Below are positions 10,323-37,355 of a stretch of 64,000 nucleotides of DNA, piece by piece. The translations under genes and the position numbers were made by a program. The notes under the pieces were generated by a model. That model did no database searches and was not told where the DNA came from. It was given only the letters and a program-made list of their open reading frames with translations. This DNA comes from Clostridia bacterium (lineage in GTDB: Bacteria > Bacillota > Clostridia > Oscillospirales > Acutalibacteraceae). The stretch is from the NCBI GenBank assembly GCA_024404115.1, contig JAKSQM010000001.1:310001-374000 (forward strand). Direction: 5' to 3'. Numbering within the stretch: position 1 is the first letter of the stretch; the number at the start of each line of letters is the position of its first letter.

Positions 10323-10349
10323 GTAGGGGATGGCGTCCTCGACATCCCG
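10323..10349 (+). repeat. REP-like palindrome
   Basis: Starts GTAGGGGATG and ends CATCCCG with a ten-base loop. Another member of the GTAGGGG...CCCG family in this island. Confidence 0.65.
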
Positions 10350-10390: not shown

Positions 10391-10425
10391 ACCACACGCC
10401 GTAGGGGAGGGGCTTGCTCCTCCCG
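10391..10425 (+). repeat. REP-like palindrome, 35-base unit identical to 11191-11225
   Basis: The 35 bases 10391-10425 are identical to 11191-11225, exactly 800 bases downstream. The unit is ACCACACGCC followed by a palindrome GTAGGGGAGG...CCTCCCG. Confidence 0.85.
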
Positions 10426-11050: not shown

Positions 11051-11401
11051 AAGAAAGCATACCTCTAAAAGTTGGCAAACTGTCCAAGCGATAGCACCGA
11101 GCTTTTTTGTCGCCCCTTGACAGGGGAGAGCTATAGAGAGTAGATATAAGATAACAGATAATAAATAATAGATAATGGTGAAAATAATTCACCACACGCC
11201 GTAGGGGAGGGGCTTGCTCCTCCCGAACTAATATCGTAAAAATGAGTGTTCACTGCAACAACATCCTTTACAAAATGTGCAAGGACATACTTTACAAAAC
11301 ATTTCCCTCTCCTTGCGGTTATACCCGCACCAACCGCAACTTTTAGTAAATCTGCACACCACATTTATTTGTAAAAAATATCAAATATTTGAAATTACCT
11401 A
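11051..11401. other. Non-coding remainder of the repeat island
   Basis: Contains the second copy of the 35-base REP unit at 11191-11225 and A+T-rich sequence. I see no convincing gene or RNA. The 77-residue minus-strand frame at 11131-11364 owes part of its length to the REP palindrome and has no credible protein features. Confidence 0.6.
11191..11225 (+). repeat. REP-like palindrome, second copy of the 35-base unit
   Basis: Base-for-base identical to 10391-10425. Confidence 0.85.
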
Positions 11402-36837: not shown

Positions 36838-36887
36838 TAAAGCAGAATTTTTATAATTAAAATGTGGGTGCTGAAAACACTGACAAT

Positions 36888-37355
36888 ATGGAAACGAGAA
36901 AGCATAACAGATTAAAAGAATATGATTATTCGCAAAATGGTTATTATTTCATAACGATCTGTACGGCAGAAAGAAGCAAAATATTGTGTGATATACCCGT
37001 AGGGGCGAACTGTGTTCGCCCGAAAACGGCTCTGTCTGAAATCGGAAAGCTTGTTGACGAAAATATCAGAGTATTAAATGATATTTATGAAACAGTACGG
37101 GTTGATAAATATGTTATAATGCCAAATCACATACACTTGATTGTTGTAATACAAAGCGGGCGAACACAGTTCGCCCCTACGATCTCACGCATTATTAAAC
37201 AATTTAAGGGTAAAATCACAAAACAGGTTGGCTATTGCATTTGGCAAAAATCCTTTTATGACCATATTATTCGTGATGAAAAAGATTATTTGCGAATTTG
37301 GGAGTATATCGAAAACAATCCTGTTAAATGGACAGAGGATAAATATTTCATTTAA
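36888..37355 (+). CDS. REP-associated tyrosine transposase (RAYT, Y1/IS200-like)
   Basis: 155 residues from ATG 36888 (a GTG at 36864 is also in frame). N-terminus RLKEYDYSQNGYYFITICTA, HUH motif PNHIHLIVV at residues ~79-87, and the conserved end DYLRIWEYIENNPVKW. RAYTs act on REP hairpins rather than moving as ordinary IS elements. Two perfect 24-base REP palindromes lie inside the gene in opposite orientation, read in frame as residues 38-45 (VGANCVRP) and 90-98 (SGRTQFAPT), with the catalytic HIH between them. The frame is unbroken, so the protein may be active. It sits alone between galK and the M42 genes. Confidence 0.9.
   Translation: METRKHNRLKEYDYSQNGYYFITICTAERSKILCDIPVGANCVRPKTALSEIGKLVDENIRVLNDIYETVRVDKYVIMPNHIHLIVVIQSGRTQFAPTISRIIKQFKGKITKQVGYCIWQKSFYDHIIRDEKDYLRIWEYIENNPVKWTEDKYFI
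36999..37022 (+). repeat. REP palindrome inside the RAYT gene (forward copy)
   Basis: Starts GTAG, then the stem GGGCGAAC-TGT-GTTCGCCC, then G. Encodes VGANCVRP in the transposase frame. Exact reverse complement of 37157-37180. Confidence 0.95.
37157..37180 (-). repeat. REP palindrome inside the RAYT gene (inverted copy)
   Basis: Exact 24-base reverse complement of 36999-37022, 134 bases downstream of it. Its translation is GRTQFAPT. Confidence 0.95.

Follow-up and report, generated by a model that had tools for sequence, protein, structure and literature searches.

The stretch of 64,000 nucleotides that was analyzed (the window) contains a gene for a REP-associated tyrosine transposase (RAYT) of the HuH/Y1 type (Table 1). 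The initial annotation had placed its beginning at the in-frame ATG at 36888; the full open reading frame (ORF) runs from a GTG codon at 36864 to the stop at 37355. The window protein scored 81.1 bits against the REP_Tyr_transpos profile (NF047646; cut-off, 80) and 18.9 bits against Pfam Y1_Tnp, which is under the cut-off of 23. Its best solved relative by profile was E. coli TnpAREP (4ER8; E = 2.6e-13), and a fold search of the PDB returned as the top match 4er8_A, which is TnpAREP bound to a REP hairpin (E = 1.1e-7; TM, 0.64/0.63). The AlphaFold model of the protein had a mean pLDDT of 80.8. The motifs NHIH, WQ, and YIENNP were all present, and Q128, H89, H91, Y148, and N152 were invariant across the 54 sequences of the RAYT alignment. 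The GTAG-contacting region of TnpAREP, with the contact residues as given in PMC8266576 and PMC6006769, could be aligned with the window RAYT and appears to be conserved in it. We infer from these likenesses that the gene encodes a predicted TnpAREP-type enzyme, which may bind or cut the REPs embedded in its own coding sequence.

Table 1. Features of the RAYT gene and of the REP pair within it (positions are those of the window)
Feature	Position	Strand	Description or basis
RAYT CDS (REP-associated tyrosine transposase, HuH/Y1)	36864..37355	+	GTG start, 163 aa; an in-frame ATG at 36888 is a possible alternative start
Site 1, GTAG-first REP hairpin coding VGANCVRP	36999..37022	+	Loop between strand 26-34 and helix 59-74 (AlphaFold model)
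Spacer of the REP arms, 134 nt	37023..37156	+	Codes the HIH-bearing segment; ORF and inverted-repeat search
HIH (HuH) codons, residues 89-91	37128..37136	+	ORF translation and alignment
18-nt inner flank of site 2, minus strand GCTTTGTATTACAACAAT	37140..37157	-	Codes part of LIVVIQS; common to genomic copies of the first REP family
Site 2, same REP inverted (GTAG on minus), coding strand read as GRTQFAPT	37157..37180	-	Loop joining strand 89-96 to helix 107-122 (AlphaFold model)
WQ....DH..R, residues 127-137	37242..37274	+	Aligns with the part of E. coli TnpAREP that contacts GTAG
Putative catalytic tyrosine codon, Y148 of YIENNP	37305..37307	+	Alignment and 4ER8 profile

An inverted repeat lies within the ORF, with arms at 36998-37022 and 37157-37181 (25 nt each, 100% complementary, 134 nt apart). 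Two perfect 24-base REP palindromes in inverted orientation, in frame on either side of the HIH motif and read as VGANCVRP and GRTQFAPT, had been described in the initial annotation; the ORF and the inverted-repeat search confirmed this description, and the perfect arm is one base longer. The term palindrome is correct because each 25-nt arm folds alone into an 8-bp hairpin. Each embedded REP is a GTAG-tagged hairpin of the form GTAG-GGGCGAAC-TGT-GTTCGCCC. When up to three mismatches were allowed, this REP had two matches in the window, both in the gene, and none in 100 dinucleotide shuffles. A search of the whole genome with the embedded REP, proposed as a check in the initial annotation, showed that genomic REPs match it: at the same threshold, 46 sites were found, two in the gene and 44 elsewhere (51 rows minus five opposite-strand duplicates; reversed-pattern control, 0). 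The genomic copies of this first family form doublets, with GTAG facing outward as in the gene pair and a spacer of 32-33 nt. No GTAG hairpin was found within 1 kb on either side of the window RAYT gene.

The in-frame residues had been thought to form loops, and both sites do fall in loops of the AlphaFold model; at site 1, the predicted pLDDT was <50 at residues 47-52. The proposal that both segments might be clean insertions held only in part. The profile alignment to 4ER8 skips 14 positions at site 1 and six at site 2, the stretch ahead of the site-1 gap not being significant alone. However, site 1 has 22 residues in the window RAYT and 21-22 residues in the REP-less relatives L092, L099, L127, L130, and L137, and such similar lengths indicate a replaced loop. 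Compared with the window RAYT, site 2 was one to three residues shorter in four of these five relatives and seven residues longer in L092. Tandem in-frame expansions were present at the REP loops of L136, L074, L114, and L076: L136 has VDERTPLS several times together with GRDENH repeats, and L074 has repeated VGATFG units.

Relatives of the same genus were aligned together with the best 80 of at least 445 relatives from genome contigs, so the set is not a random sample. Record titles were mostly Clostridia or Oscillospiraceae, with a few other labels, and many of the assemblies were MAGs. There were 110 loci with matches, seven of which failed the first filter (incomplete or frameshifted); two of the seven (L053 and L131) were kept, which gave 105 loci, and three others (L043, L082, and L118) were dropped for unreadable sites, which left 102 readable genes. 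A pair was defined as an inverted match between site 1 and site 2 with a score of at least 12. A matching inverted REP pair was found at the same two loops in 86 of the 102 genes, although these genes are related and gene counts are therefore not event counts. Pairs drawn from different genes reached a score of 12 in 13.7% of cases. The sum of the scores of own pairings was 2074, compared with 907 (SD 34) over 2000 re-pairings, and 84 of the 86 paired genes beat the best of 50 synonymous recodings. The own partner was the best or tied best in only 52 of the 86 genes, because related genes have REPs in common. In one gene (L091) that had a pair by score, GTAG was not located; thus, 85 of the 86 pairs entered the hairpin counts. 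GTAG was intact at each site in 84 of these 85, and 35 pairs were identical across 24 nt. The relatives carried 62 different site-1 hairpins. The absences of the pair were scattered: a tree from which the REP columns had been excluded, and in which 54 of 99 inner branches were unresolved, required 14 changes between pair and no pair. REP sequence was correlated with the backbone of the RAYT (r = 0.34; maximum under permutation, 0.15).

The embedded pair as a trait of all RAYT-like genes was rejected, since none of 29 readable NF047646 matches from the phylum, mostly longer proteins, had a GTAG pair (best inverted pair, 14.0); a thirtieth control locus (L234) had no ORF. Among 17 further RAYTs from five genomes, 15 had a REP inside. 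In L264 and L268, which belong to these 17, no hairpin was detected inside or flanking the gene, although weak pairs were scored there (14.0 and 14.5). Plasmid RAYTs were examined in four of seven matching records: the Monoglobus gene has the pair, and those of Spirosoma, Leptolinea, and Kovacikia do not.

Several single loci differed in their surroundings or state. The RAYT of Monoglobus pectinilyticus plasmid 12 (L253), with its embedded REP pair, lies between two annotated site-specific DNA methyltransferase genes. In L104, both sites have GTAG, but the REPs differ between the two sites of the one RAYT. In L066, the same REPs and inner flanks recur approximately 900-1100 nt after the RAYT start, so that the gene has probably been duplicated in tandem there. 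A long downstream REP array, with units every ~170 and 340 nt, was seen ~600-1540 nt from the RAYT start in L072 (Fonticella tunisiensis). Several of the RAYT copies of G007 and G017 (L043, L055, L060, and L047) have stops or frame breaks, which shows that RAYT genes decay in some relatives.

The same REP sequence was read in more than one frame. Translation of the 22-mer GTAGGGGCGAACTGTGTTCGCC gives VGANCVRP in two genes (L031 and L064) and RGELCSP in five others (L065, L071, L073, L081, and L085). Over all located pairs, site 1 was in phase 0 in 73 genes and in phase 1 in 12 genes; phase 2, which would place a TAG stop in frame, was never seen. Codons were compared in 21 independent gene pairs, each gene being used once. 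Where the two genes of a pair had the same residue, they used the same codon in 232 of 251 cases within REPs vs. 1298 of 2145 cases outside (Fisher, P = 5.5e-28), and this excess was found in all 20 testable gene pairs; the residue-matched expectation inside REPs was 137.9 of 251. When all genes were compared by alignment column, without conditioning on pairs, the corresponding values were 293 of 327 and 1711 of 3041. The most conserved seven-codon windows were the two REP sites (best elsewhere, 0.78; median, 0.63). The constraint at the embedded REPs is on the DNA and not on the protein.

TnpAREP has been reported to recognize and bind REPs as single-stranded DNA (ssDNA) hairpins of the GTAG strand (PMC8266576). 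Under symmetric scoring of G·T and A·C, the ratio of G·T to A·C among stem mismatches on the GTAG strand was 19:2 at site 1 and 22:3 at site 2 (13:2 and 18:3 when only distinct hairpins were counted); the other stem mismatches (26 and 25 at the two sites) were more frequent than G·T. Site-to-site pairing on the coding strand showed little bias (44 G·T vs. 35 A·C). At the inverted site 2, GTAG lies on the antisense strand. The G·T bias on the GTAG strands, together with the weak site-to-site bias, points to separate ssDNA hairpins and not to one long mRNA stem. Thus, the unit that is kept looks like two separate ssDNA hairpins on the GTAG strands. The G·T bias was present in one of the three genomic REP families of the window's genome (second family, 43:7; the others, 1:2 and 5:9), and its absence from two of three counts against wobble as a general signature. 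In Chakrabartyella (L275, L276, and L278), both hairpins are kept despite paired changes in the stems that distinguish one site from the other; therefore, the hairpins persist without homogenization.

One alternative that agrees with the DNA-level conservation of two REPs in the gene is autoregulation, in which the RAYT would bind its own embedded hairpins, as ssDNA or as mRNA, and thereby limit its own expression or copying. The predicted 25-bp pairing of the two arms, which is strong (DNA, z = -8.0; RNA, z = -5.5), also speaks for it. Of the long mRNA stem, to which the initial annotation had given 24 bases, the predicted formation stands; as a selected feature it is unsupported, since the site-to-site mismatches show little G·U preference, whereas the hairpins of the GTAG strands do. 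That small preference, together with the bias at site 2, which lies on the antisense strand and not on the mRNA, tells against the mRNA form of autoregulation and not against binding to DNA. We regard autoregulation as possible but doubtful.

According to Nunvar et al. (2010; PMC2817692), a RAYT gene always has an inverted REP pair on its flanks. We scanned 250 nt on each side of the RAYT genes for GTAG hairpins. A flanking REP on any side was less frequent in genes with the pair (17 of 86) than in genes without it (9 of 16; P = 0.004), and so were REPs on both flanks (3 of 86 vs. 4 of 16; P = 0.011). GTAG hairpins were found in none of 102 shuffled upstream flanks. Both flanks carried a REP in four of the seven genes with none detected inside and in three of the 95 with one (P = 2.7e-4); if L032 and L094, whose site 2 still has a REP that is degenerate or was not scored, are moved to the class with a REP inside, the counts become 4 of 5 vs. 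3 of 97. Among the 17 further RAYTs, the two with REPs on both flanks carry an internal REP at just one of the sites. This inverse relation between inside and flanking REPs suggests that the linked REP pair is a component able to sit either outside or inside the gene.

The window's genome holds three RAYTs with different REPs, and two of them carry exact members of genomic families. Besides the window RAYT, the C6 RAYT has a pair of another REP at the same loops (GTAGGGGAGGGGCTTGCTCCTCCCG at site 1 and one change at site 2); the pattern for this second family gave 57 rows in the genome, two of which are the embedded copies. The C41 RAYT has a related third REP type at site 2 only. The pattern of the third genomic family gave 54 rows, but the embedded C41 copy differs from this pattern by four bases and only three were allowed, so this search is uninformative on identical copies of the C41 REP. 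One third-family and two second-family REP copies lie in the window itself (10323-10349, 10401-10425, and 11201-11225), amid mixed repeats. Outside this genome, the embedded REP of G009 matches its genome exactly at site 1, with at least seven other exact copies among the matches listed, and that of G018 (RAYT L262) is exact, with at least nine copies outside the gene among the 50 matches listed of 73. The genome of L127/L261, a RAYT without an embedded REP, has 82 matches to the general REP pattern; thus, embedding is not required for a REP population.

The embedded REPs might also be tolerated passengers that entered two permissive loops of an ancestor and have no selected function, their likeness being maintained by gene conversion with either the genomic copies or the other site as donor. 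In-frame REPs are known from various unrelated genes (PMC3733652), and the tandem expansions in L074, L076, L114, and L136 and the low-confidence site-1 loop of the model suggest that these loops are permissive. However, both embedded copies of G004 have a stem version that a search of that genome found only in the gene. In G005, the only two copies found of its REP type are the embedded ones (a third row is another type), and the nine other copies in G014 have both partners of one stem pair changed relative to the embedded REP, yet these two orthologues keep the codons in 14 of 14 cases in the REP vs. 57 of 101 elsewhere, in assemblies that are 83% (G005) and 79% (G014) complete. A genomic REP population therefore seems unnecessary for keeping the embedded pair, as judged from incomplete assemblies (72-88% complete for G004, G005, G009, and G014). 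The paired stem changes between the sites of L275, L276, and L278 and the lower frequency of flanking REPs when the pair is inside also argue against passengers, and we consider this explanation improbable.

Two further explanations concern the protein. The REP-encoded peptide could be the part of the protein that recognizes REPs; site 2 directly precedes helix 107-122, which matches the order of the DNA-binding helix in TnpAREP as described in PMC8266576, but one REP gives unrelated site-1 peptides in different frames, and Quentin et al. model the insertion of subclass 2.4 away from the DNA-binding and catalytic sites (PMC6006769), which makes this role very improbable. Ordinary protein conservation, in which the residues matter and the likeness of the DNA is a by-product, had been named in the initial annotation as what would undo the REP interpretation; most pairs do use the same phases ((0,2) in 64 of 85), but this cause has a negligible probability and is rejected as the sole one, because the same 22-nt REP occurs in two reading frames, the silent positions are kept, and 84 of the 86 paired genes beat their synonymous recodings.

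The genomic copies of the first REP family also shared sequence with the gene beyond the REP itself. Among 34 genomic contexts of this family, the gene's own sites being excluded, 16 matched at least 14 of the 18 nt that adjoin site 2 on its inner side, and one matched all 18. The gene's own site 1 matched three of the 18 nt, none of the other 84 RAYTs matched more than 12, and a match of at least 14 occurred in 1 of 20,000 random 18-mers taken from the window. In the gene, the 18 nt lie beside HIH. Copying between the gene and the genomic elements would be the simplest reading of this sharing, and the coding constraint on the 18 nt would favor the direction from gene to genome. The sharing was absent in G004 and G009 and is thus rejected as a general rule. 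In the flanks of other loci, inspected by eye, it was seen only in L066, where a second gene copy lies downstream, and in the window's genome the flanks of the second family were, also by eye, unlike its RAYT. The RAYT gene might be a master copy, with the inverted REP pair around its HuH segment as the template from which genomic REPs are founded; the 18-nt coding scar in the genomic copies counts for this proposal and the absence from G004 and G009 against it, and we consider it less likely than not. If it were true, a single ORF would bring both the enzyme and a seed substrate to a new genome.

The REPs of these genomes showed some further patterns. In the first REP family of G000, the inner flank often contains TTGCATTGCAA or TTGTATTACAA. 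Both are palindromes around one base, and the changes between them come in pairs, as would be expected if a second symmetric site were maintained. The genomic doublets of G004 and G009 (L287-L290) have unlike arms (GCGC/GACC and GTCT/GACC) and short spacers. The aligned RAYTs of these two genomes (L038 and L039) have the same or almost the same stem type at the two sites.

The basic fact, that REPs lie in frame inside tnpAREP genes of subclass 2.4, is already known. Quentin et al. (2018) reported such REPs, generally between HuH and Y, in this subclass (PMC6006769), with which the window RAYT shares its motifs. Subclass 2.4, which equals RAYT group 4 of Bertels et al., is described there by the HuH motif NH[IFV]H, the W motif WQ, and the Y motif YIxNNP. 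The NHIH, WQ, and YIENNP of the window RAYT and REP stems that start with three G-C pairs are like those of subclass 2.4, and the variable insertion that contains the REP in that subclass, located after strand 3 and ahead of helix C, has its counterpart at site 2 (six positions relative to 4ER8). By motifs and by the REP-bearing insertion, the window RAYT thus appears to fit subclass 2.4 (RAYT group 4). Its relatives are mostly labeled Clostridia or Oscillospiraceae, unlike the taxa named for subclass 2.4 in PMC6006769 (Cyanobacteria, Bacteroidetes, and scattered phyla). We did not find the REP site before the HuH motif or the matching inverted pair described in the main text of that paper, whose supplementary Figures S6 and S10 may show more, and as far as our literature search goes they are apparently new. 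The same applies to the silent-site conservation, the wobble specific to the GTAG strand, and the inverse relation to flanking REPs, on which the supplements may likewise show more.

Three other described arrangements resemble the one in the window. Like the REPtron (Nunvar et al. 2010; PMC2817692), the window gene combines a single RAYT with two inverted copies of its REP; unlike in the REPtron, the pair is inside the ORF, no GTAG hairpin flanks the gene within 1 kb, and the 64-kb window has no other copy of this REP. The pair is also like a REPIN (Bertels and Rainey 2011; PMC3116915) in being an inverted REP doublet able to form a hairpin in ssDNA. Unlike a REPIN, it is not a dispersed extragenic doublet but part of a coding sequence, and its spacer of 134 nt codes the HuH segment; the REPIN-like doublets of the window's genome are the shorter ones found elsewhere, not the embedded pair. 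GTAG REPs that lie in frame in genes were also described by Di Nocera et al. (2013; PMC3733652), but those genes are varied and unrelated, whereas here the gene is a RAYT and the two sites are fixed.

The explanation that we favor, and consider somewhat more probable than its negation, is that the window RAYT is a REPtron-like unit in which the flanking inverted REP pair is now inside the ORF, so that the enzyme and its cognate substrate are kept on one DNA. Here and in most of the relatives examined, the inverted pair, with its GTAG tags outward, sits in two loops around the HuH-coding segment, and each embedded REP would be maintained as a single-strand hairpin on its GTAG strand. Selection would keep the enzyme and its substrate on one indivisible stretch of DNA, and the RAYT would presumably bind or cut its own embedded copies. 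As for the benefit of such linkage, the most likely would be that, following transfer or loss, a genome could be reseeded with the REPs that belong to it, and the next would be binding of the RAYT to its own gene. Several points count against this REPtron-like unit. Gene conversion among copies could keep the REPs alike without selection. RAYTs without an embedded REP exist (L127/L261), no REP was detected inside or flanking L264 and L268, and the two REPs of L104 differ from each other. Stem mismatches other than G·T are also the more numerous, and two of the three genomic families lack the G·T bias.

Silent-site rates in RAYT genes that embed REPs are not neutral, and these genes are a clear case of overlapping information for a protein and for hairpins of single-strand DNA. 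A gene that contains its own silently kept substrate offers a handle on the reasons for the joint persistence of RAYTs and REPs. The embedded substrate could be erased synonymously, with the enzyme unchanged, which would separate a need for the enzyme from a need for the linked substrate.
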